Below, piece after piece: positions 15,913 through 34,425 of a stretch of DNA of 40,150 nucleotides. This DNA is from Gemmatimonas sp. (GTDB lineage Bacteria; Krumholzibacteriota; Krumholzibacteriia; LZORAL124-64-63): assembly GCA_013824755.1 (NCBI GenBank), contig PNOJ01000014.1:1-40150 (forward strand), in the 5' to 3' direction. Within the stretch, counting starts at the first letter, position 1. Each line of letters opens with the position of its first letter. Position numbers and translations under genes: made by a program. The notes beneath the pieces were generated by a model. The model was given only the letters and a program-made list of their open reading frames with translations, was not told the DNA's origin and did no database searches.

Positions 15913-17190
15913 TCAGGTGCCCGCGGAGTAGTCGTCGGCGTAGCGGGCCTGCTCGTCGGTCAACACGTCGAGCGACATGCCCATGGTGCGCAGCTTGATG
16001 CCGGCGATGTACTGGTCTTGCGACTCGGGGATGTCGTGGACATCGGCGACGAGGTCGCGGCCTTCGCGCGCGAGCCGGACCATGCTCAGGAACTGGTTCG
16101 CGAACGACATGTCCATGACCTCGCTGGGGTGGCCCTCGGCGGCGGCCAGGTTCACCAGGCGGCCCTGCGCCAGCAGGTAGATGCGGCGGCCGTCGCGCAG
16201 GGTGTACTCCTCGCAGTTGTCGCGGATCTCGCGCTTGCCGGTCGACAGCGAGGCGAGATCCCCGATGTTGATCTCGCAGTCGTAGTGGCCGGTGTTGCAG
16301 ACGATGGCGCCGTCGCGCATGACCTCGAAGTGCCGCTTGACGATGACGTCCTTCATGCCGGTGGCGGTGATGAAGATGTCGCCGACGGCGGCCGCTTCGT
16401 CCATGGTCATGACTCGGTGCCCGTCGAGGGTCGCCTTCAGGGCGGCGGTGGCCTTGATCTCCGTGGCGATCACGCTGGCGCCGAGGCCGGCCGCGCGCAT
16501 CGCGCAGCCCTTGCCGCAGTGGCCGTAGCCGGCGACGACGAAGTTCTTGCCGGCCAGCAGCACGCTGGTGGCGCGGATGATGCCGTCGAGGCTGGACTGG
16601 CCGGTGCCGTAGACGTTGTCGAAGTCCCACTTGGTCTCGGCGTCGTTGACCGCCACGACGGGGTACTTCAGCGCGCCGTCGGCGGCCATCGCGCGCAGCC
16701 GGTGGATGCCGGTGGTCGTCTCCTCGGTGCCGCCGACGATGCCCGCGATCAGGTGCGGGTGGCGGTTGTGGACGGAGAAGATGAGGTCGGCGCCGTCGTC
16801 GAGCGTCAGGGTGGGCTTGAAGTCGAGGGTGCGGTCGATGCACCAGTAGAACTCCTCGACGTTCATCCCGTGCCAGGCGTAGATCGAGACGCCGGCGGCC
16901 GCCAGCGCGGCGGCCACGTCGTCCTGCGTGGACAGCGGGTTGCAGCCGCTCCACGAGATCTCGGCGCCCGCGGCGAGCAGCGTCTCGACCAGGACGGCCG
17001 TCTCCTTGGTCACGTGCAGGCAGCCGGCGATGCGCATGCCCTTGAGCGACTGCAGGCGGGCGTGCTCCTCGCGCAGGGCCATCAGCACCGGCATCCGGCT
17101 CTCGGCCCAGTCGATCTTGCAGCGCCCGCGCTCGGCGAGGCCGGGATCGGCCACCTTGCTGGGTGAGGCGCCTGCGTGCTTGTTCGTCAT
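15913..17190 (-). CDS. ahcY: S-adenosylhomocysteine hydrolase
   Basis: 425 residues. It splits S-adenosylhomocysteine into adenosine and homocysteine using tightly bound NAD. Visible: HVTKETAVLVETL (59-71), SGCNPLSTQDDVAAAL (81-96), GTGQSSLDGI, the NAD-binding VVAGYGHCGKG and ATGMKDVI. The NPLSTQDDVAAAL signature and the moderate length mark the shorter form found in archaea, Thermotoga and cyanobacteria, without the insertion of the proteobacterial/eukaryotic enzyme. AGGAGG stands seven bases before ATG 17190. The upstream regulator gene ends 19 bases earlier, so the two form an operon. Function is secure. Confidence 0.95.
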   Translation of the reverse strand: MTNKHAGASPSKVADPGLAERGRCKIDWAESRMPVLMALREEHARLQSLKGMRIAGCLHVTKETAVLVETLLAAGAEISWSGCNPLSTQDDVAAALAAAGVSIYAWHGMNVEEFYWCIDRTLDFKPTLTLDDGADLIFSVHNRHPHLIAGIVGGTEETTTGIHRLRAMAADGALKYPVVAVNDAETKWDFDNVYGTGQSSLDGIIRATSVLLAGKNFVVAGYGHCGKGCAMRAAGLGASVIATEIKATAALKATLDGHRVMTMDEAAAVGDIFITATGMKDVIVKRHFEVMRDGAIVCNTGHYDCEINIGDLASLSTGKREIRDNCEEYTLRDGRRIYLLAQGRLVNLAAAEGHPSEVMDMSFANQFLSMVRLAREGRDLVADVHDIPESQDQYIAGIKLRTMGMSLDVLTDEQARYADDYSAGT

Positions 17191-17209
17191 CGTCGTCCTC
17201 CTGTTCGGG

Positions 17210-18256
17210 TCAGCGCGGGCCGGGGCCCGCATCGTCGGTCACGGATGGGGCGGCAGCGGCGGGAACCTTCTCCCCCACGGCCAGGAACACGTCGGGCCAG
17301 ACCGCGCCGCGGTCCTGCAGGCCGGGCGGCAGGGAGACCCGGGCCAAGTCGATCTGCGAGGGGCGGCGCACGAGGTAGCGGCGCGGGGCGAGGCCGTGGC
17401 GGTCGAAGAGGGCCAGCATCTCCTCGCGGGAGAACCCCAGCCACTGGTGGGCCAGCTCATCGCGCATCCATTGCAGGTTGTGGCGGGTGAACGCCGCGAC
17501 CACCACCCTGCCGCCGGGGCGTACCACGCGGGCCATCTCGTGCACGGCCTGGCCGGGGCTGGCGACGTGGTGCAGCACCATCGAACAGTAGGCGGCGTCG
17601 AAGGTCCCATCGGCGAACGGCAGGGCCTGGACGTCGGCGCTGTGGAAGCGGACGCCGGCGAGCTGCTCGCGCTCGCACAGCTGACGGGCGCGCTCGAGCA
17701 TCGCCTCGCTGGTGTCCACGGCGGTGACGGACGCGCCGGTGCCCGCGAGCAGCGGCAGCAGGGCGCCGGTGCCGGTGCCGATGTCCAGGACCGCCAAACC
17801 GGGCGGGACCAGGGCCGCCACGGCGCCGGCCTGGATGTCGGGCGCCTCGAAGGCGGGCCGGATCTGGTCCCAGGCGCCGGCGATGCCCGCGAAGAACTCC
17901 CCCGTGCGCCGATCGCGATCGGCCAGCACGCGTCGCAGCGCCTCGTCATCGCCGGCGGCCTCGGGCACGCCCCCGGCCAGCGTGAGCACGGCGTCCCGCA
18001 GGTCCGCCGCGTCACCCAGGGAAGACCGGTCGGCCAGTCCGTACCAGCCCCAGGTCCCGTCCTTGCGATGGCTCAGCCAGCCGGCCTCGCGCAGGACCGC
18101 CAGGTGCTTCGAAACGCCCGGCTGGCTCAAACCGAGGACCTGCACGAGGTCCTGGACGGTCAGCTCTCCCCTGCCGAGCACGCGCAGGATCCGCAGCCGG
18201 GTCGGATCCCCCACGGCCTGGAACAGGGCAGCCGGATGCTGGAATTGGACGACCAT
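17210..18256 (-). CDS. ArsR-family regulator fused to an AdoMet-binding methyltransferase-like domain (SahR-like)
   Basis: 348 residues. An ArsR winged helix occupies about 5-75 (ALFQAVGDPTRLRILRVL, then LGLSQPGVSKHLAVLREAGW). A class I methyltransferase-like domain starts at about 150 with motif I VLDIGTGTGALLPL (156-169), D181 in VTAVDTSEAMLE, and YCSMVLHHVASPGQ. This architecture is that of SahR, a regulator of methionine/SAM recycling that senses S-adenosylhomocysteine. Position directly before ahcY (19 bases) supports the same role. It may also be an enzyme; ArsR-methyltransferase fusions exist without a proven ligand. The start at 18256 has GGAG close by (three-base spacing), and its promoter overlaps a palindrome suitable for autorepression. 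Confidence 0.85.
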   Translation of the reverse strand: MVVQFQHPAALFQAVGDPTRLRILRVLGRGELTVQDLVQVLGLSQPGVSKHLAVLREAGWLSHRKDGTWGWYGLADRSSLGDAADLRDAVLTLAGGVPEAAGDDEALRRVLADRDRRTGEFFAGIAGAWDQIRPAFEAPDIQAGAVAALVPPGLAVLDIGTGTGALLPLLAGTGASVTAVDTSEAMLERARQLCEREQLAGVRFHSADVQALPFADGTFDAAYCSMVLHHVASPGQAVHEMARVVRPGGRVVVAAFTRHNLQWMRDELAHQWLGFSREEMLALFDRHGLAPRRYLVRRPSQIDLARVSLPPGLQDRGAVWPDVFLAVGEKVPAAAAPSVTDDAGPGPR

Positions 18257-18278
18257 GGTCTCCGCTCGCAGCCAATGA

Positions 18279-18294
18279 ATCGCTACATAACGAT
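18279..18294. promoter_or_regulatory. Palindromic operator candidate over the regulator-ahcY promoter
   Basis: ATCGCTACATAACGAT has arms ATCGnTA/TAnCGAT and extends outward by TG/CA after one mismatch, giving 8 of 11 paired positions over 22 bases (18276-18297). It covers the -10 box. Size and AT-rich centre suit an ArsR-type dimer. Confidence 0.6.
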
Positions 18295-18312
18295 GCAGTA
18301 ATCTATCAACAA
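18284..18312 (-). promoter_or_regulatory. Promoter of the regulator-ahcY operon
   Basis: On the minus strand, -35 TTGTTG (18312-18307), a 17 bp spacer and -10 TATGTA (18289-18284), about 28 bases before the regulator ATG. Confidence 0.6.
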
Positions 18313-18336
18313 CCCGCCAACCACGCAAGCCGAAGC

Positions 18337-18565
18337 TTCTGGCCGCGAAATTGTCCCTGCCCATGCTGTGATGCGACTTGGATCCCCACATCCTGCCGAG
18401 ACAGGGGACGCACTCCGGGCACCTCGTGTGCCCGGAGCGCTTGGCCTTCCGGCCCTTTCGCCATCCTGGCTTCAGGGCCTGCAGGACACCCCTGTCTCGG
18501 CAGGATGTGGGGATCCAAGTCGAACAGCAGCATGGGCATGGGCAGGGACAATTTCGCGGCCAGAA
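18337..18565. repeat. Large imperfect palindrome with an inner hairpin
   Basis: Two nested pairs of perfect inverted repeats: 30 bp arms (18337-18366 with 18536-18565) and 34 bp arms (18374-18407 with 18489-18522). They are separated by short unmatched bases (7 on the left, 13 on the right). The 81-base centre holds another perfect hairpin, CTCCGGGCAC (18413-18422) with its complement (18428-18437). The element fills the gap between the ArsR-fusion gene and the lpdA stop (its end lies four bases from that stop). It encodes nothing evident. It resembles a MITE or other palindromic repeat element; no target-site duplication was recognised. Confidence 0.85.
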
Positions 18566-22413: not shown

Positions 22414-23379
22414 ATGCCGAACATCGCCGTGCACATCGAGCAGAGCGGGGGCGCCGCCAAGAAGGTCGCCTGGCAGATGACGGCCGAGGCGCGCCGTCTC
22501 GTCGACCGGACGGGCGGCGAGGTCTGGGCCGTCGTGCTGGGCGACGCCGCCGCCGCCGCCGAGGCCGGCCGCCACGGCGCCCACCGCGTCTTCGCCGCCG
22601 GCGGCGACGCCTTCGCCCGCTACGACGCCGAGACCTGGACGCGGGCCCTGGCCGCCTTCGTCGCGGCCCGCCGCCCCGACCTGCTGCTGGTGGGCGCGAC
22701 CGCGACGGGCAAGGACTTCGCGCCCCGCCTGGCGGCGCGGTTGGACGCCGCCTGCGTGAGCGATTGCGTGGGCCTGGACTTCGACGGCGGGTTCCGGCTG
22801 CGCCGCCCGATCTTCGCCGGCAAGTGCTACGCCGAGGTGGCGGTCGACTCGCCGGTCGCGGTGGCGGGCGTGCGCCCGAACGCCTTCCCCTTCTTCGCGG
22901 GCGGCGGCGCCGACGCGCCGGTCGAGGAATTCGATCCCGGCCTGGGCGGCTTCGCGCCCCACGCCGCGGTCGTCGAGACGATCACGTCGGCGGAGAAGAA
23001 GATCGAGCTGACCGAGGCCGAGGTCATCGTCTCGGGTGGCCGCGGGCTCAAGGAAGCCGGGAACTACAAGCTGATCGAGACGCTGGCGGCGACCATGGGC
23101 GCCGCGGCGGGCGCCAGCCGCGCCATCGTCGACGCCGGCTGGGTGCCGCACTCCCACCAGGTCGGGCAGACCGGCAAGACCGTCAGCCCGAAGCTCTACG
23201 TGGCGGTCGGGATCAGCGGCGCGATCCAGCACCTCGCGGGCATGAGCTCGTCGAAGTGCATCGTGGCCATCAACAAGGATCCCAACGCCCCGATCTTCAA
23301 GGCCGCCGACTACGGCATCGCGGCCGACCTCTTCGAGGTCGTGCCCGCGCTGGACGCGGCGATCCGGGCCCTGGACTGA
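22414..23379 (+). CDS. etfA: Electron transfer flavoprotein, alpha subunit
   Basis: 321 residues. The C-terminal FAD domain is intact: [55 protein letters not shown] and [17 protein letters not shown]. The N-terminal half is the usual alpha/beta domain. GGGAG stands before ATG 22414. There is no ferredoxin-like N-terminal extension, so it is the simple form. Downstream is a hairpin terminator. A membrane Fe-S protein probably serving as the ETF:quinone oxidoreductase is encoded about 3 kb away on the other strand. Confidence 0.94.
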
Positions 23380-25077: not shown

Positions 25078-26124
25078 TCAGGCGCCCAGGAGACCCCTGG
25101 CGGAGGCCACCGCCGCCTGGGCCTCGTCGACCAGTTGCTGGAGGATCTCGCGCAGGGGCTGAGTGCGGGTCACCAGGCCGACCGACTGGCCGGCCATGAG
25201 CGAGCCGCGCTCGACGTCGCCGTCCACCGCCCCTTCGCGCAGGGAGCCGACCCAGTACTTCTCCACCTCGAACTGGGCGTCCTGGCGGCTCATCTTCCCG
25301 GACTCCACTTGTTGCAGCAGGTCGAGCTGCAATTCGCCGAAGCGCTGCATCGCGGCGTTGTTCAGCGCACGCACGGCGACCACCGGCAACTTGGACGAGT
25401 ACTGGGGCGTGGCGATCGCCTCGCGGGAGCGGGCCCGGATGAAGGCCTGCTTGAACGCCGGATGGGCCAGGCACTCGTCGGCGACGACGAAGCGCGTGCC
25501 GAGCTGGGCGCCGGCCGCTCCCATCAGGCAGAGGTGCCCGATCATGCGGCCGTCCGCGATGCCGCCGGCGACGAAGATCGGCAGCCGGTCCGCGTAGGGG
25601 AACAGGACCTCCTGCAGCAGCACCGAGGTCGAGACGTGGCCGATGTGGCCGCCCGCCTCGCTGCCCTCCAGGATGAGCGCGTCGGCCCCGTAGCCGATCA
25701 TGCGCTCGGCGATGGAGCCGGCCGAGGCGAAGCAGATCACCTTGGCGCCGCTCGCGCGGGCCTGCTCCACCTCGCTCTGGCGCGGGATGGAGCCGGCGAA
25801 GAAGATGTGGCTCAGCCCCTTCTCGCAGCAGATGTCCAGGTGGGCCCGGTAGTTCGGGGCGATGACGATGATGTTGGCGCCGAAGGGCCGGTCCGTCAGG
25901 GCGCGGGTGGCGTCGATCGAGGCAGCGAAGAGCTCGGGCGGCATGTTGCCGCCGGCGAGCGAGGCGAAGCCGCCCAGGTTGCTGAACGACGCGACCAGGT
26001 GCGGGTCCGAGATCCAGGTCATGGCGCCGCACATGATCGGCACGTGGGAGCCGAAGAACCCGGCGCCGCGCCGCCACAGGCGGTCCAGTTCGGGGGTCGT
26101 GCGCACGGGGTCGTAGACGGACAT
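25078..26124 (-). CDS. FMN-dependent nitronate monooxygenase / FabK-like oxidoreductase
   Basis: 348 residues, a TIM-barrel flavoprotein. Family marks: PIMCGAMTWISDPHLVASFSN near the N-terminus, EGSEAGGHIG with His160, FVAGGIADGR (184-193) and GAQLGTRFVVADE. These are shared by nitronate monooxygenase (2-nitropropane dioxygenase) and by FabK enoyl-ACP reductase II; sequence reading alone does not separate the two. FabK would reduce enoyl-ACP in fatty acid synthesis. Start ATG 26124 has GGAGG five bases upstream. It lies between the FGE-like lipoprotein and the membrane Fe-S gene, each with separate promoters, so no operon is implied. Confidence 0.8.
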   Translation of the reverse strand: MSVYDPVRTTPELDRLWRRGAGFFGSHVPIMCGAMTWISDPHLVASFSNLGGFASLAGGNMPPELFAASIDATRALTDRPFGANIIVIAPNYRAHLDICCEKGLSHIFFAGSIPRQSEVEQARASGAKVICFASAGSIAERMIGYGADALILEGSEAGGHIGHVSTSVLLQEVLFPYADRLPIFVAGGIADGRMIGHLCLMGAAGAQLGTRFVVADECLAHPAFKQAFIRARSREAIATPQYSSKLPVVAVRALNNAAMQRFGELQLDLLQQVESGKMSRQDAQFEVEKYWVGSLREGAVDGDVERGSLMAGQSVGLVTRTQPLREILQQLVDEAQAAVASARGLLGA

Positions 26125-26250: not shown

Positions 26251-28260
26251 TCAATCGGCGAGCTGCCGCTCGATCATCTCGGCGAGGTCCAGCGCGCGCA
26301 GCGTCTCCTCGCGCCCGGTTTCCTTGATGCCGTCGCCGATCATCGTCAGGCAGAACGGGCAGGCGGTGCAGACCTCCGCGGCCCCGGTGCCGGCGGCCTC
26401 GTCGACCCGGTTCTGGTTGATGCGCGTGCCCAGGGACTCCTCCATGAACATCCGGGCGCCGCCGGCGCCGCAGCAGAACCCGTCGCGGCGGCTGCGGGCC
26501 ATTTCGACGCGTTCGAGTCCCAGGGCGTCGACGAGCTCGCGCGGCGCGTCGTAGACGCCGTTGTGGCGGCCGAGGTAGCAGGAGTCGTGGTAGGTGACCC
26601 GGGCGGCGCCGTCCGGGCGCAGCTTCAGGCGGCCCTGCCCCACCAGGTCCAGGAGCAGCTCGGAGTGGTGCAGCACGCGCGCCGCGGACCAGTCGAACTG
26701 GGGGTACTCGTTGCGGATCATGTTGAAGCAGTGCGGGCAGGCCGTGACCACGGCGCCGACCTCGTACCGGGAGAAGGTCTCGATGTTGCGCCGCGCCTGC
26801 GCCTGGAAGAGGTACTCGTGGCCCGCGCGACGGGCCGGGTCGCCGCAGCAACCCTCCTCGGTCCCCAGCACGGCGTAGTCGACGCCGGCGCGGTCCAGCA
26901 GGCGGCACACGGCCCGCAGGACGTCCTTGTTGCGCTCGTCGTAGGCGCCGGCGCAGCCCACGAAGAGCAGGTACTCGGCACGGCCCTTGTCGCGCAGGCG
27001 CGGCACCGGCAGGTCCCCGATCCAGTCCTCGCGGGCGGCGGCCCCGACGTTCCAGGGGTTCGAGTTGTTCTCCAGGCCGCGCAGCGCCGCCTGGAATTCC
27101 GGCGGCATGGCCGACTCCATCATCATGCGGTGGCGGCGCAGGTCCACGACGTGGTCGACGTGCTCGATGGCGACCGGGCAGACCGTCTGGCAGTAGCCGC
27201 AGGTGGTGCAGCCCCAGAGCACGTCGTCGGGGATCACGACGCCGGCGAGCGCCGGACGCGCGATCGCCGCCGACGCGGCGGCCGCCTCCTCGTCGCGGCC
27301 CTGGTGTTTCAGCTTGCCCACCCGGCGCAGGCCGTCGGCGACGGCCAGCAGGTGGTCGCGCTGGTCGGTGATGAGCTCCCGCGGCCGCAGGGGCTTGCCC
27401 GTGGTGGCCGTCGGGCAGTGCACCGTGCAGCGGCCGCACTCGGTGCAGGTGTACATGTCCAGGAGGCGCCGCCAGGAATAGTCCTCCAGCTTCCCGACGC
27501 CGAAGACCTCGCGCCCCTCGAAATCCATCCGGTCGGGCGCGGCCGGCGGACCCAGCTTCATCGTGAACACGTTGGGCAGGGCGGTCAGCACGTGGAAGTG
27601 CTTGCCGTAGGGCAGGAAGTTCAGGAACGCCAGCACCAGGACCAGGTGCGACCAGAACATCCAGACCAGCCACGCCCGGACCTCCGGCGCGGGAACGCCC
27701 GCGAACAGGCCCGACAGCATGGTGCCGACGAAGGACCAGCCGGCTTCGGGATGATCCGGCCGCAGGGCGAACAGGGCCGCGTCGCCGAGCAGGTCGGTGA
27801 CCATCAGCGCGGCGATCCAGGCCAGGATCAGCACGCCCTCGGCGCTGAGGTGCAGGCGCCGGGGACGCAGCACCAGCCGTCGCCAGGCGGCGAAGCCCAC
27901 CGCCGCCAGCACGACGATCTCGAACAGGTCCTTCAGGACCGCGTAGGCCTGGCCGAACGGGCCGTCGAAACCCGGCAGCTGGAAGTCGGGGCTGTAGCCG
28001 CGGCCGCAGAGCGTGATCGTGCGCAGGGCGACCACCAGGAAGCCCGAGAAGATGCCGACGTGCATCCAACCCGCGCCCCGCTCGTAGAGCAGCCGTTTCT
28101 GGCCGAAGCCGATGGCGAACAGGCGCCGCAGCCGCTCGCCGACGCGGTCGCGCCGGTCGTCGGGCGCCGCGGCCCGCAGCAGCCAGTAGCGGTCCGCGAC
28201 GGTGTTCGCGAACAGCGCCAGCGCCGCCAGCAGCAGCACGGTGGTCAGCACGGGGTCCAT
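26251..28260 (-). CDS. Membrane Fe-S oxidoreductase with two CCG domains, probable ETF:quinone oxidoreductase (EMO-like)
   Basis: 669 residues. The first 230 residues form a membrane part with about six hydrophobic segments and histidines suited to heme b (WMHVG H67, [10 protein letters not shown]205, KHFHVL). Two [4Fe-4S] motifs follow, [12 protein letters not shown] (C272-C282) and [12 protein letters not shown] (C351-C361). Two CCG domains of the heterodisulphide-reductase type come next (GCCGDP at 470-475 with ACPHC; HDSCYLG and FCCGAGG at 595-601 with ACPFC). This matches the HdrDE-like family that includes the ETF:menaquinone oxidoreductase EMO. With etfBA about 3 kb away, transfer from reduced ETF to membrane quinone is the likely role. 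ATG 28260 has GAGG six bases upstream. The ligand is inferred, not proven. Confidence 0.85.
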
Positions 28261-28298
28261 GGCCGTCCTCACGGGTCGGGATTCGCAACGCCGCCGCC

Positions 28299-28327
28299 AA
28301 GATAGCAACCGCGGACGGGCCGGGGAA
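28299..28327 (-). promoter_or_regulatory. Possible promoter of the membrane Fe-S gene
   Basis: On the minus strand, -10 TATCTT (28304-28299), 17 bp from a poor -35 TTCCCC (28327-28322). Confidence 0.35.
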
Positions 28328-28350
28328 CCGAAAATCCGCCGACGCATCCA

Positions 28351-28364
28351 CCACCCCGGGGTGG
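28351..28364. promoter_or_regulatory. Perfect 14 bp palindrome touching a -35 box
   Basis: CCACCCCGGGGTGG is self-complementary over all 14 bases, and its last three bases are the start of the -35 box of the following promoter. It is a possible repressor site; no regulator is identified. Confidence 0.4.
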
Positions 28365-28390
28365 ACACCGGGGCCGGTCCTCGGTACATT
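28362..28390 (+). promoter_or_regulatory. Promoter of the CoA-binding/ugd unit
   Basis: -35 TGGACA (28362-28367), a 17 bp spacer and -10 TACATT (28385-28390), about 105 bases before the first ATG. Confidence 0.6.
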
Positions 28391-29015: not shown

Positions 29016-30326
29016 ATGAGCCGCATCTGCATGATCGGGACGGGATACGTGGGCCTCGTGTCGGGAGCCTGCCTGGCCGACTTCGGGCACGAGGTCTGGT
29101 GCGTGGACATCAACGCCGAGCGCATCGCCGACCTGCACCGCGGCGTCATGCCGATCTACGAGCCGGGACTCGACCGCCTCGTCGCCAAGAACGTGGCCGG
29201 GGGCCGCCTCTTCTTCACCACCTCGCTGGCCGAGGCGATGGGCGTGACCGACGTGATCTTCATCGCCGTGCAGACGCCCATGTCCGACGGCGGCGAGGCC
29301 GACCTGAGCTACGTGCTGAACGTGGCGCGCGAGGTCGGCAGCCTGATGACGCGCCCCTGCGTGGTGGTCACCAAGAGCACCGTGCCGGTGGGCACCTCGC
29401 GCAAGGTCAGGACGGCGATCCTGGAGTCCCAGCCGCAGCCGGTGGACTTCGAGCTGGCCAGCAACCCCGAGTTCCTGCGCGAGGGATCGAGCATCGAGGA
29501 CTTCATGCGCCCCGACCGCGTCGTGGTCGGCGCCGATTCGGCCCTCGGCGAGAAGGTCATGCGCGAGATCTACCGGCCGCTGTACCTGCTGGAAACCCCG
29601 ATCCTGGTCTGCGACATCGAATCGGCGGAGCTGATCAAGTACGCCAGCAACGCCTTCCTCGCGGTGAAGATCTCCTACATCAACGAGATCTCCACGCTGG
29701 CCGACCGCGTGGGCGCCGACGTCTCGATGGTGGCCAAGGCCATGGGCCTCGACAAGCGCATCGGCCCGAAGTTCCTGCACGCCGGCCTGGGCTTCGGCGG
29801 CTCCTGCCTGCCCAAGGACACCAACGCCATCGTCCACATCGCCGAGCAGGCCGGCACCGACATGAGCATCGTGCGCGCGGCGATCGGCGTGAACGAGCGC
29901 CTGCCCGACCTCGCCATGGCGAAGGCCCGCGAGCTGCTGCCCGAGCTGAAGGGCAAGGTCGTGGCCATGCTGGGCCTGAGCTTCAAGCCGAACACCGACG
30001 ACATCCGCGACGCGCCCAGCCGCCCGCTGGTCGCGGCCCTGCAGGCGGCGGGCGCCTCGCTGCGCGTGCACGACCCGGTGGCCATGGACAACTTCCGCGC
30101 CCTCCACCCCGCCCTGCGCTACTGCGAGGGCCCGTACGACGCCGCGGCCGGCGCCGACCTGGTGATGTTGGTCACCGAGTGGAACGAGTACCGGCAGCTC
30201 GACCTGGCGCGCCTCGGGGCGGCCGTGTCCGGGCGCCGCTTCCTGGACTGCCGCAACGTCTACAACAGCGCCCTGCTGGGCGAGCACGGCTTCGCCTACC
30301 GTTGCTTCGGGCGCCCCCGCGCCTGA
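29016..30326 (+). CDS. ugd: UDP-glucose 6-dehydrogenase
   Basis: 436 residues. N-terminal NAD-binding motif MIGTGYVGLVSGACLADFGH, TKSTVPVGTSRK, ASNPEFLREGSSIEDF, ELIKYASNAFLAVKISYINE (K208) and the catalytic FGGSCLPKDTNA (C264, D268) identify the UDP-glucose/GDP-mannose dehydrogenase family. PEFLREG and GSCLPKD are the UDP-glucose dehydrogenase forms. It oxidises UDP-glucose to UDP-glucuronate for surface polysaccharide or UDP-pentose synthesis. AAGGAAAAG precedes ATG 29016. The aminotransferase gene begins 56 bases downstream, so the pair probably makes an amino or uronic sugar nucleotide. UDP-N-acetylglucosamine dehydrogenases of the WbpA type are a less likely alternative. Confidence 0.9.
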   Translation: MSRICMIGTGYVGLVSGACLADFGHEVWCVDINAERIADLHRGVMPIYEPGLDRLVAKNVAGGRLFFTTSLAEAMGVTDVIFIAVQTPMSDGGEADLSYVLNVAREVGSLMTRPCVVVTKSTVPVGTSRKVRTAILESQPQPVDFELASNPEFLREGSSIEDFMRPDRVVVGADSALGEKVMREIYRPLYLLETPILVCDIESAELIKYASNAFLAVKISYINEISTLADRVGADVSMVAKAMGLDKRIGPKFLHAGLGFGGSCLPKDTNAIVHIAEQAGTDMSIVRAAIGVNERLPDLAMAKARELLPELKGKVVAMLGLSFKPNTDDIRDAPSRPLVAALQAAGASLRVHDPVAMDNFRALHPALRYCEGPYDAAAGADLVMLVTEWNEYRQLDLARLGAAVSGRRFLDCRNVYNSALLGEHGFAYRCFGRPRA

Positions 30327-30382: not shown

Positions 30383-31510
30383 ATGCACGAGAACGACGGC
30401 CGCCGCATCGCCCGCTACGACCTGGTGACGCCGATGCTGCCCTGCAAGCAGGAGATCCTCGCCGGCGTCGACCGGCTGCTCTCGACCGGGGAGTACATCC
30501 TGGGCCGGGAGGTGCGCGCCCTGGAGACCGAGATGGCCGCGGCCTGCGGGGCCGCCGACGCCGTCGGCGTCGCCTCCGGCTCCGCGGCCCTGTACCTGGC
30601 GCTGCAGATCGCCGGCGTCGGCCCGGGCGTCGAAGTCGTGACCACCCCGTACACCTTCGTCGCCACGATCGAGGCGATCATCCGCCTGGGCGGCACGCCC
30701 GTCTTCGCGGACATCGACCCCCGCACGCTCAACCTGGATCCGGCCCACGCCGCCGCGGCCGTCACCGGGCGCACCCGCGTCCTGCTGCCGGTGCACATCT
30801 TCGGCATGCCCTGCGAGATGGAGCCCCTCGCCCTGACCGCCGAGCGGCACGGCCTCGACCTGGTCGAGGACATGTGCCAGGCCTACGGCTCCCTGTACCG
30901 CGGCCGGCCCTGCGGGTCCTTCGGGCGCCTGTCCTGCCTGAGCTTCTACCCCACCAAGAACCTGCCCGGCATCGGCGACGGCGGCATGATCCTCTGCCGC
31001 GACGCGGCCGACACCGCCCCGCTGCGCCGGCTGCGCGGCCACGAGACGGTCCGCCTCGGGGGCCGGCTGCTGTCGGGCTGGAACAGCCGCCTCGACGAGA
31101 TCCAGGCCCTGGCGATCCGCGTCCGGCTGGCCCGCTTCGCCGACGAGCAGGCCGACCGCGACCGCGCCGCCGCCATCTACAACGAACTGGTCCCCGAAGC
31201 CAACCGGCTCGCCGAACCGCAGCCGGGCTCGGGACTCCGCGTGACCCATCATCAGTACTGGATCCGCGTGCCGGATCGTGCCAGACTGGAGGCCCGGCTG
31301 CGGGAAGCCGGCGTCGACTTCGGCATCTACTACGCGCCGCCGCTGCACCGCCACGAGCTGGCCGAGTACTGCCGGGTGCACGGGGAACTGACGCACGCCG
31401 AAGCCGCGGGACGGGAAGTGCTGGCCCTGCCGATCCACCAGGCGCTGCCCGAGCGCGACGCCATCAGGATCGGGGAACTGGTGAAGGAACACCTCGCGCG
31501 GGCGGCCTGA
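30383..31510 (+). CDS. DegT/DnrJ/EryC1/StrS-family PLP-dependent sugar aminotransferase
   Basis: 375 residues. Landmarks: STGEYILGREVRALETEMA near the N-terminus, VGVASGSAALYLALQ, TTPYTFVATIEAI, DLVEDMCQAYGS (D163 holding the PLP ring) and FYPTKNLPGIGDGG with the Schiff-base Lys192. These enzymes transaminate keto sugars bound to nucleotides. Companion ugd suggests a uronate- or pentose-derived keto sugar, as with ArnB or WbpE, but no further genes of such a pathway are in the window. AAAGGA stands before ATG 30383. The HemC-like gene follows after 37 bases. Confidence 0.88.
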   Translation: MHENDGRRIARYDLVTPMLPCKQEILAGVDRLLSTGEYILGREVRALETEMAAACGAADAVGVASGSAALYLALQIAGVGPGVEVVTTPYTFVATIEAIIRLGGTPVFADIDPRTLNLDPAHAAAAVTGRTRVLLPVHIFGMPCEMEPLALTAERHGLDLVEDMCQAYGSLYRGRPCGSFGRLSCLSFYPTKNLPGIGDGGMILCRDAADTAPLRRLRGHETVRLGGRLLSGWNSRLDEIQALAIRVRLARFADEQADRDRAAAIYNELVPEANRLAEPQPGSGLRVTHHQYWIRVPDRARLEARLREAGVDFGIYYAPPLHRHELAEYCRVHGELTHAEAAGREVLALPIHQALPERDAIRIGELVKEHLARAA

Positions 31511-31547: not shown

Positions 31548-32639
31548 ATGAGCAGCGGCACCTACACCCTGGGAACCCTGGACGGACGCCTCAACCGCGC
31601 CCAGACCCTGCTGGTCATCGAGCGGCTGCGCGCGGCGCACCCCCGGGCCATCTTCGACATGGTCACCGTCTCGGACCCCCGCACCAACCGCCAGAGCGCA
31701 TCGGAGCTGTACTGCGCCAACTCGGCGGCGGAGATCGAGCTGCTGCTGTCGCACCTGCTGGACGGCGAGTTCCAGCTGCTCGACGTCGCCGCGGAGGACA
31801 TCGTGCGCCCGCTGCCGAACGGCCTGGTCGTCGCCGCGGTGCCGGAGCGCAACACGCCCTTCGACGCCCTGCTGCACAAGGGCGGCTGCATCGCGGACGA
31901 TCTCGAGGACGGCACGCGCGTCGGCGTGCTCTCCCGCCGCTCGATGGCGCAGATCCACCAGCTCTGGCCCCTGCTCAAGCCGAAGCTGCTCTACGGCGGC
32001 GCCGTCGAGGCCCTGGACGCCTACCTCCAGGACGAGGCGGTGGACTGCCTGGTGATGCCCGCGGCCATCGCCGAGCGCCTGGGCGTGCAGGACATCGTGA
32101 CGGAAATCTTCTTCCCGGAGATGACGCTGCCCGGGGCGGGCCAGGGCCTCATCGCCATCATCGCGCGGGCCGGCGACGCCGAGGCGCTCGCCATGGCCGG
32201 GGCCGTGGACTCCCCCCAGTCGCGCGCGGAGATGACGGCCGAACTGGCCTTCCGCGAGCGGATCTGCTCGGACCAGGACTGCCCCCTCGGCGTGCTGGCC
32301 CAGGCGGGCGAAGACAGCCTGATCATCACCGGCGCCGTGGGTTCCCTGCACGGCCACTCCATGAACCAGGCCGTGCTGCGCGGGCCCTCGTCCGAAGCGG
32401 CGGCGCTGGGCGTGCGGCTCGCCGAGCAGCTGCTGCTCAACACGGCGTCCCTGATCGACCTGCTGGAAGCCGACTTCCCCGAGGGGTTGCCCGTGGAGCT
32501 GGATGAGGGCGCGGCGACGCCGCAGCAGAACGACGACCTGCGCGAGGCCAGCCTGCCGGAGGAGCTCGACGAGGAGATCAGGGGCGACGGGGACGATCCC
32601 TACGACGACGACTACGTCGAACCAAGAGATGACTACTGA
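31548..32639 (+). CDS. Degenerate hydroxymethylbilane synthase (HemC)-like protein with acidic tail
   Basis: 363 residues. The whole HemC fold can be followed: GTLDGRLNRAQTLLVIERLRAAHP (like GTRxSPLAxxQ), LLDGEFQLLDVAAED (like the LAVHSxKD strand), PNGLVVAAVPERNTPFDALL, VGVLSRRSMAQ (like GTSSLRRxxQ), MPAAIAERLGV, LPGAGQG (194-200) and ELAFRERICSDQDCPLG. Yet key residues are lost. The arginine of the N-terminal motif and the RGN(V/I)xTR arginines are gone (YGGAVEAL instead). In an ungapped alignment from F235 the dipyrromethane cofactor cysteine becomes Gln243, with Cys245 two residues on. Residues after 305 form a very acidic tail. It probably does not make hydroxymethylbilane; role unknown. 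ATG 31548 follows the aminotransferase in one unit. Confidence 0.75.
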   Translation: MSSGTYTLGTLDGRLNRAQTLLVIERLRAAHPRAIFDMVTVSDPRTNRQSASELYCANSAAEIELLLSHLLDGEFQLLDVAAEDIVRPLPNGLVVAAVPERNTPFDALLHKGGCIADDLEDGTRVGVLSRRSMAQIHQLWPLLKPKLLYGGAVEALDAYLQDEAVDCLVMPAAIAERLGVQDIVTEIFFPEMTLPGAGQGLIAIIARAGDAEALAMAGAVDSPQSRAEMTAELAFRERICSDQDCPLGVLAQAGEDSLIITGAVGSLHGHSMNQAVLRGPSSEAAALGVRLAEQLLLNTASLIDLLEADFPEGLPVELDEGAATPQQNDDLREASLPEELDEEIRGDGDDPYDDDYVEPRDDY

Positions 32640-32666: not shown

Positions 32667-33602
32667 CTACCGAGCCTGCCGCTCGGCCGCCGCCAGGGCC
32701 GCCGCCACGGCGGCGGCGGCGAACGGGTCGCTCATCTGGGCCGTGCCGATCTGCACGGCGACCGCTCCCACCGCGAAGAACTTCAGCACATCCTCGAGGG
32801 TCGCGATCCCGCCGACGCCCACCACGGGCAGGCCCGTCTCCTGCACGATCTCGTCGACCCGGGCCAGCGCCACCGGCAGCAGCGCGGGTCCGCTGTAGCC
32901 GCCCCGGCGGCGCGGCAGGACCGGCGCGCCCGTGCTCAGGTCCACGTCCATGCCGATCAGGGTGTTGATGGCGGTCACGCCGTCGGCGCCGCCGCGGGCC
33001 GCCGCCGTGGCGAGCCGGGCGATGCTGCCCACGTTGGGCGTGAGCTTGGCCAGCAGGGCGCGCGCCGGCAGGTGCTCGCGCGCCGCGGCGACGCAGCGCT
33101 CCACCGTCGCGGGATCGCGGCCGAAGTCGACGCCGCCTTCGGCCACGTTCGGGCAGCTGAGGTTCAGTTCGACGCCGTGCCAGTGCACGGCCCCGTCCGC
33201 CGCGGCGGCCAGGCGGCGGGCCAGGTTCCCGAATTCCTCCGGCCGGGTGGCCGCGAGGCTGATGACGAAGGGCACCCCGCGCGCCTCCAGCGCGGGCACG
33301 ACCTCGTCCGCGAAGCGCGAGAGGCCGACGTTCTCCAGACCGATGGAATTCAGCGCGCCGTGCGCGGTCTCCCACAGCCGGGGCGGAGGGTTGCCGCAGC
33401 GGGCCTCGGGCGTGACCGTCTTGGTGACCACGGCGCCGAGACCGTCGAAGGGCGACCCGCAGCCCGGCGCGCCGAGATCGGCCCCGTCCAGTCCGTACCC
33501 GAAGCAACCCGAAGCGGTCCAGATCCGGCCGGGGAACACGCGCGGGCCGAGCCGCAGCGGTCCGCGGGGATCGAAGGCCAGCCAGGACGGCAGCGTCGTC
33601 AT
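32667..33602 (-). CDS. pyrD: Dihydroorotate dehydrogenase, catalytic subunit (class 1B)
   Basis: 311 residues, an FMN TIM barrel. It contains TKTVTPEARCGNPPPRLWET (61-80), NSIGLEN, LNLSCPNV with catalytic Cys150, KLTPNV, TAINTL, GGYSGPALLPVAL, VGVGGIAT and the phosphate-binding AVQIGTA. Cysteine as the base and the GNPPPR segment assign it to class 1B, which works with PyrK and passes electrons to NAD. It oxidises dihydroorotate to orotate in pyrimidine synthesis. ATG 33602 overlaps the pyrK stop as ATGA. It is the last gene of the pyr operon and converges on the HemC-like gene with 27 bases between; no terminator was recognised. Confidence 0.93.
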   Translation of the reverse strand: MTTLPSWLAFDPRGPLRLGPRVFPGRIWTASGCFGYGLDGADLGAPGCGSPFDGLGAVVTKTVTPEARCGNPPPRLWETAHGALNSIGLENVGLSRFADEVVPALEARGVPFVISLAATRPEEFGNLARRLAAAADGAVHWHGVELNLSCPNVAEGGVDFGRDPATVERCVAAAREHLPARALLAKLTPNVGSIARLATAAARGGADGVTAINTLIGMDVDLSTGAPVLPRRRGGYSGPALLPVALARVDEIVQETGLPVVGVGGIATLEDVLKFFAVGAVAVQIGTAQMSDPFAAAAVAAALAAAERQAR

Positions 33603-34425
33603 GCCCCGCCTCCCCCGCCGAGCCGCGCCCAGTCCAGGTCGAGGGCGTCGAAGACCGGCCCGTCCTTGCACGCCGTGGCGTAGCCGTCGCCGTCGGCCCG
33701 CGGCACCACACACCCCCGGCACACGCCGTACCCGCAGCCCATGCGTTCCTCCACCGAGACCAGGCAGTCCCAACCGCGCTCGGCGGCCAGCGCCGCGGCC
33801 GCGCGCAGCAGGGGCGGCGGGCCGCAGGCCAGCACCACGTGCGGGGGCGCCCCGGCCGGCAGCAGCGAGCGCGCCAGTTCCACGACGTTGCCGCCGAACG
33901 CCGGCCGGTCGGCGGGAGCGCGACGGCCCGGTCCACGCTCGTGCGCCAGGCGGGGCCCAGCAGGTCCCAGGGCAGGTCGCCGCCGTCGCGGCCGCCGGCG
34001 CAGCAGAGGTCCTGTGAGCGGCCCCAGCGCGTCTCCCAGGCGAGCAGGGGCGGCAGCCCCACCCCGCCGGCCAGCAGGAGGCGCGGTCGGGGATCGGGGG
34101 CGGGGAACGGTCGGCCCAGGGGCGCGAGGCAGGTCACGGGCGCGCCGACGGCGGCCTCGCGCAGCCGCGCGGTGCCGCGGCCGACGACCTTGTAGAGCAG
34201 CGCGAGGCGGTTCCCCGTCGTCGCCAGGATGGAGAAGGGACGGCCGAAGACCAGGGAGAGGTCACCCGCGAGGTTGAGCATGCAGAACTGGCCCGGCAGG
34301 AAGGGGATGTGCTCCTGCAGGTCGAACTCGACCAGGTGCATGGACGACGAGACGGAGGTCTGCGCGACGATCGACCCGTGCAGGCGTCGGGCGGGCGGGG
34401 CGCTGGCGGCGGCGGGCAGGTTCAC
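33599..34425 (-). CDS. pyrK: Dihydroorotate dehydrogenase electron-transfer subunit PyrK, frameshifted in this sequence
   Basis: The gene reads from GTG 34425 (AGGAG eight bases upstream) in one frame through the FAD domain (FLPGQFCMLNLAGD, FGRPFSIL, YKVVGRGTARL) and the NAD-domain start (LLLAGGVGLPPLLA). It then continues in another frame with VVLACGPPPLL and the [2Fe-2S] motif MGCGYGVCRGC and ACKDGP. Length 827 is one base short of whole codons. Restoring one C in the minus-strand run at 33914-33916 gives a smooth join (DRAVALPADRPAFGGNVVEL) and a 275-residue protein of normal PyrK size. PyrK carries electrons from PyrD to NAD. Either a sequencing/assembly error or a recent mutation; the intact flanks favour the former. 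Confidence 0.85.

Follow-up and report, generated by a model that had tools for sequence, protein, structure and literature searches.

The window analyzed here is the whole stretch of DNA, 40,150 nucleotides in length, in which a gene for a HemC-like protein lies downstream of sugar-metabolism genes and is followed by a convergent pyrD. The features on which the analysis draws are as follows.

29016..30326, + strand: Ugd, a UDP-glucose/GDP-mannose dehydrogenase by family match, the most widely shared upstream neighbor
30383..31510 (start approximate), + strand: DegT/DnrJ-type sugar aminotransferase, from a Pfam match on the L067 ortholog
31548..32639 (stop codon included), + strand: HemC-fold pseudoenzyme of 363 aa with an ATG start, from profile matches and an AlphaFold2 model
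31797..31799, + strand: codon of Asp84, which corresponds to a catalytic residue (Asp84) in E. coli HemC; retained by 31/31 members of the window's family (f1)
31992..32012, + strand: YGGAVEA, residues 149-155, aligned in place of RGNVGTR, with Arg149 and Arg155 lost
32073..32075, + strand: codon of Glu176, invariant in 51/51 paralogs and not conserved in canonical HemC (a gained constraint)
32274..32276, + strand: codon of Gln243, which takes the place of the cofactor cysteine (Cys242) in the alignment with E. coli HemC
32460..32492, + strand: LLEADFPEGLP motif, residues 305-315, present with small variations in all f1 members checked
32493..32636, + strand: acidic, low-confidence tail, residues 316-363
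32667..33773, - strand: PyrD (dihydroorotate dehydrogenase), convergent, ending the transcription unit

The aminotransferase gene is directly upstream and ends 37 bases before the ATG of the HemC-like gene. This is in agreement with the preliminary description of the locus, which had placed the gene with ugd and a sugar aminotransferase and not with heme genes. Elsewhere in the window, an S-adenosylhomocysteine hydrolase adjoins a fused ArsR-type DNA-binding domain and methyltransferase (15913-18391, - strand). An electron transfer flavoprotein (ETF) alpha subunit (22414-23379, + strand) is near both a nitronate-monooxygenase-like protein (25078-26124, - strand) and a 712-aa protein carrying 4Fe-4S and CCG domains (26251-28389, - strand).

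The protein matched PF01379 over residues 8-213 (83 bits) and PF03900 over residues 229-296 (25.4 bits, just under the 26-bit cut-off), and its TIGR00212 hemC score of 125.8 bits was below the 164-bit equivalog cut-off. Sequence matches in the PDB were exclusively to hydroxymethylbilane synthase (HMBS). According to the alignment with E. coli HemC, Arg149 is replaced by Tyr and Arg155 by Ala, with other losses at Arg11 (Leu), Lys83 (Glu), Arg132 (Ser) and Arg232 (Leu), and the loop residues Lys55 and Lys59 are likewise lost. Asp84, Arg131 and Arg176 are retained, such that only the latter two remain from the set Arg11, Lys83, Arg131, Arg132, Arg149, Arg155 and Arg176. Mutagenesis of E. coli HemC, as summarized in PMC3945110, found R11H, R149H, R155H, R176H and R232H to be detrimental and cofactor binding to be impaired in R131L and R132L. 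The absence of substrate arginines claimed earlier thus holds for the RGNxxTR segment but not for Arg131 and Arg176, which remain.

An AlphaFold2 model of the window protein (pLDDT 87.2) was least certain in the tail and in the loop around residues 41-60. Its best structural match in the PDB was human HMBS (Z 38.0, 2.2 Å over 302 residues), with HMBS chains matching at Z 37-38 and the three-domain HMBS fold present, and Z fell to 11 for the next fold family, the two-lobe solute-binding proteins. The earlier tracing of a full HemC fold was therefore corroborated by the model (pLDDT 87) and by its best match. An f3 paralog at 24% identity was also modeled as HemC (pLDDT 93, Z 33.4), and its genome is without hemC and hemB. 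Domains 1-2 may share a two-lobe ligand-cleft arrangement with type II periplasmic solute-binding proteins and receptor domains of this type (for example GlnP SBD, BvgS VFT2 and Bug27), which they match at Z 10-12, far below the HMBS match; unlike those proteins, the paralog has a third domain. No hydrophobic leader peptide was recognized on reading the window protein, whose start, MSSGTYTLG, coincides with the first strand of its fold. The protein is therefore presumably cytoplasmic. No solute-binding-type transporter was recognized among the annotated neighbors of the paralog. The C-terminal addition spans residues 305-363. The acidic tail described earlier was found in the window protein (20 D/E and 3 K/R in 48 residues) but is not a property of the whole group of paralogs, within which it is confined to families f1 and f5.

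The window's genome belongs to Candidatus Krumholzibacteriota, with f1 as its GTDB family, and 80 genomes of this phylum were examined by profile search. PF01379 matches were sorted by hand, using score and, where aligned, catalytic residues, into canonical (approximately 190-272 bits when complete) and paralog (approximately 37-146 bits) classes; contig-end fragments were placed by score, so single class assignments could be wrong. A second, canonical hemC, raised as a possibility in the preliminary description, was found on another contig of the window's genome (G000:C26:2560-3195; 313 aa) with the motif GGCQLPFG, scores of 236.6 bits (PF01379) and 274 (TIGR00212), and hemB approximately 1 kb away. 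The paralog was present in 68 of the 80 genomes, canonical HemC in 41, HemB in 40, and the latter two together in 39. Paralog and HemB coexisted in 38 genomes, and 28 genomes contained the paralog with neither HemC nor HemB; its retention must therefore serve a purpose other than tetrapyrrole synthesis. HemB was not detected in any f3, f4, f7 or f8 genome of the census; the f3 genomes without HemB number 20, several of them more than 90% complete, while other absences may reflect incomplete assemblies. Where HemB and canonical HemC are both missing, the paralog cannot serve porphobilinogen chemistry. One genome, G047, carries two canonical HemC copies (C1:110167-110787 and 3236472-3237092) and two HemB copies besides the paralog. 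A scan of the genome collection with f1-specific peptide patterns gave matches in f1 alone.

For residue comparisons, 51 paralogs (31 from f1) were aligned with 20 canonical HemC sequences. Cys242 was absent from 51/51 paralogs and present in 20/20 canonical proteins, which upholds and extends the initial reading of Gln243 at the cofactor position. Within f1, Arg11, Lys83, Arg132 and Arg155 were each found in 0/31 members and Arg131 in 30/31. Asp84 was kept in 31/31 f1 and 4/4 f5 members and in 1/16 from f3, f4 and f6/f8, and the position is mostly Thr, His, Tyr, Met or Glu in f3, f4, f6 and f8. Few residues are conserved across all families, and these are partly new: Arg101 and Glu232 are retained in every paralog, and Glu176 (51/51), Gln181 and Glu228 are near-invariant residues gained clade-wide. 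In a quick-search tree of 69 sequences, built without bootstrap and with E. coli HemC as the sole sequence from beyond the phylum, the paralogs formed a single clade (SH-aLRT 100) with the GTDB families monophyletic inside it. This separation of families fits vertical descent from a single ancient duplication, the point of which is not dated by a tree with one outside HemC.

Within-genus dN/dS of the paralog core was 0.08-0.11, indicating purifying selection, and the tail evolves faster than the core; whole-gene values were alike for the paralog (0.15-0.24) and canonical hemC (0.18). PERNTPFDAL and PGAGQG are both present in the window protein, as reported earlier, and the accompanying argument that random decay is unlikely is strengthened by the loss of Cys242 in 51/51 homologs and a core dN/dS of approximately 0.1. 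With the cofactor cysteine and most catalytic and cofactor-binding residues lost in a gene under purifying selection, the original pseudoenzyme reading was retained, and, judged from sequence, the HMBS function has almost certainly been lost.

Comparison of approximately 40 loci revealed that an upstream sugar/polysaccharide block is common to all, with Ugd as its widest member (19/20 f1, 4/4 f5 and 4/6 f3 loci). In f3, f6 and f8 the upstream order is nucleotide-sugar epimerases, Ugd, WecB, Wzx flippase, WecA-type transferase and the HemC-like gene, and WecA and Wzx are also upstream in f5. The right flank in f3, f6 and f8 runs from the HemC-like gene to seryl-tRNA synthetase (SerRS), a histidine kinase and a response regulator with a PglZ domain, followed, contig permitting, by TsaE, TsaB, RimI, nucleoside phosphorylase, AccD and FolC (named from sequence). 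Families f4 and f7 retain most of this gene order, such that in f3, f4, f6, f7 and f8 the paralog also abuts SerRS and a two-component system. A convergent PyrD replaces this right flank in f5 and f1, and the upstream gene in f1 is the DegT aminotransferase. Among the conserved neighbors at the approximately 40 loci no heme genes were recognized, and no fusion of the paralog with a neighboring gene was found in the loci compared. Both the residue losses and the upstream sugar neighborhood thus recur among orthologs of the window gene. From synteny, a role tied to the polysaccharide locus is probable.

Two neighbors were considered and rejected as a universal partner: WecA, as the f1 neighbor is the DegT aminotransferase and the f1 genome G015 has a single PF00953 gene, and SerRS, as f1 and f5 have the convergent PyrD in its place. 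At L133 (G044) and L134 (G063), WecA is directly followed by SerRS and the HemC-like gene is cleanly deleted, so the paralog, though useful, is dispensable in these two genomes. Separately, the Wzx gene is missing at this locus in G044 and G075. The run of SerRS, histidine kinase and PglZ response regulator is found at L078:9558-13645, with equivalents in f3, f4, f6, f7 and f8; the response regulator has a PorX-like architecture (PF00072 and PF08665) and adjoins envelope-polysaccharide genes. In f5, a 336-aa protein lacking any Pfam match is encoded directly 3' of the HemC-like gene (L072:9837-10844 and its L038 counterpart).

The cleft was defined as 29 aligned pyrrole-contact positions, namely the E. 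coli HemC list (PMC3945110 Table 1) minus two loop residues, plus Cys242. Mean net charge over these positions was +6.4 in canonical HemC, -0.3 in f1, +0.5 in f5, -1.2 in f6/f8, +2.8 in f4 and -3.5 in f3. Cleft positions in f1 were conserved above the rest (0.79 vs 0.68, p = 0.0018), and those of f5 and f4 were likewise more conserved than the remaining positions; conservation above background was not found in f3 (p = 0.62) or f6/f8 (p = 0.24). The new near-invariant f1 cleft residues (Leu11, Val127, Gly151, Ala155, Pro171 and Asp242) are mostly small or hydrophobic. The new composition to which the f1 cleft is constrained is neutral, which speaks for a ligand different from the acidic pyrroles. 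The earlier suggestion that another acidic ligand may be bound was weakened, given that the net charge drops from roughly +6 to near 0 in f1 and to -3.5 in f3. As both cleft conservation and charge vary by family, one common ligand is unlikely, and the ligand probably differs too.

Taken together, the paralog may well be an ancient, non-catalytic, HMBS-derived ligand-binding or adaptor protein of the cytoplasm that belongs to an envelope-polysaccharide locus. As to how it acts, the tentative proposal is a ligand-binding or adaptor mechanism in which f1 and f5 members would dock through their tail. The protein would be a cytoplasmic accessory in envelope-polysaccharide assembly whose ancestral cleft, formed by domains 1 and 2 and similar to a type II solute-binding protein, would bind a small non-pyrrole ligand, in f1 not a strongly acidic one, for which a metabolite of the nucleotide-sugar pathway is the first candidate. 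Domain closure may then relay binding to a partner encoded in the sugar locus, with the partner docked by the C-terminal acidic tail in f1 and f5, in f1 after the LLEADFPDGLP motif. It is conceivable, and put forward with the same reserve, that the HemC fold was converted once, early in Krumholzibacteriota, into a cytoplasmic ligand-responsive controller or helper of envelope-polysaccharide assembly, the cleft being re-specialized in each family as the polysaccharide changed.

Among other readings, an unlikely one is that the paralog is a pure scaffold or adaptor, a stable body without a cleft ligand in which Glu176, Gln181, Glu228 and the acidic tail hold the polysaccharide enzymes or another partner. 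The small and partly new set of residues common to all families would fit such a body, as would the fixed motif of the f1 tail and the f3 and f6/f8 clefts that do not exceed background conservation. However, cleft positions are extra conserved in f1, f4 and f5, a constraint for which a cleft without a ligand would have no need. Rather improbable is a new enzyme whose cleft has gained another chemistry that uses the retained Asp84 and Arg131, with a nucleotide sugar or some other intermediate from the locus as a possible substrate. Their near-complete retention in f1 (31/31 and 30/31) and the near-invariant new cleft residues of that family are consistent with catalysis, but the gained residues are mostly small or hydrophobic, and the replacement of Asp84 in most f3, f4, f6 and f8 members leaves no catalytic set common to the clade.

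A connection with heme is harder to maintain. Descent shared with HemC and coexistence with HemB in 38 genomes could be read as signs of a regulator or partner of heme synthesis, sensing porphobilinogen or heme intermediates or binding canonical HemC; this is highly improbable, as it is contradicted for the clade by the 28 paralog genomes without HemC and HemB, the conserved neighbors include no recognized heme genes, and the paralog is missing arginines by which acetate and propionate groups are held. A hydroxymethylbilane synthase that is still active, with its cofactor on Cys239 or Cys245 or held non-covalently, is scarcely credible despite the full fold, the retained Asp84, Arg131 and GQG turn, and one f4 member above the hemC equivalog cut-off. 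Lys83, Arg132 and Arg155 are lost in 31/31 f1 members and the window's genome has its canonical hemC near hemB. Furthermore, Cys245, proposed earlier as a substitute cofactor site, occurs in just seven closely related sequences, the window protein and the six nearest to it (Cys239 in six of these seven); almost every other member of the family has Leu there, and that proposal was abandoned. A decaying pseudogene or assembly artifact, which the sub-threshold hemC score and missing catalytic residues might suggest, is practically dismissed, since the gene occurs in fixed contexts in 68/80 genomes with a core dN/dS of approximately 0.1, and the matched stretch is free of internal stops; the phylum-wide conservation and dN/dS rule out both random decay and an assembly error.

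The non-catalytic ligand-binding or adaptor reading has an analogy of fold in the solute-binding receptors and an evolutionary one in HisZ, a paralog of histidyl-tRNA synthetase that regulates HisG. By the latter analogy, the HemC-like protein would be another housekeeping-enzyme paralog that has lost catalytic residues, kept its fold and come to reside in the operon of an unrelated pathway, although it derives from HemC. With HemC itself (TIGR00212, PF01379 and PF03900) it shares common descent, the three-domain fold, Arg101, Glu232, the GQG turn and, in f1, Asp84. Unlike HemC, the paralog is without the cofactor cysteine, has lost Lys83, Arg11, Arg132 and Arg155, has a neutral to acidic cleft, is not associated with hemB, persists without tetrapyrrole synthesis, and has an added acidic tail in f1/f5. 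The paralog works unlike HemC and, while it descends from HemC, should not be filed there.

A literature search for HemC pseudoenzymes, paralogs and HemC-like proteins, in which few subscription journals were covered, yielded nothing comparable. Two of the seven paralogs scored pass the 164-bit TIGR00212 cut-off without the cofactor cysteine, namely L041:43-993 (f4; 210 bits), from a genome (G037) without HemB, and L033:8933-9856 (f6; 165.9 bits). Both would be automatically named hydroxymethylbilane synthase, and automatic annotation can in this way credit heme synthesis to genomes unable to make porphobilinogen. With a phylum-wide clade, a fixed gene context and persistence in the absence of the tetrapyrrole pathway, the paralog is a clear example of an enzyme from an essential pathway that has been given a different function, one open to direct testing.
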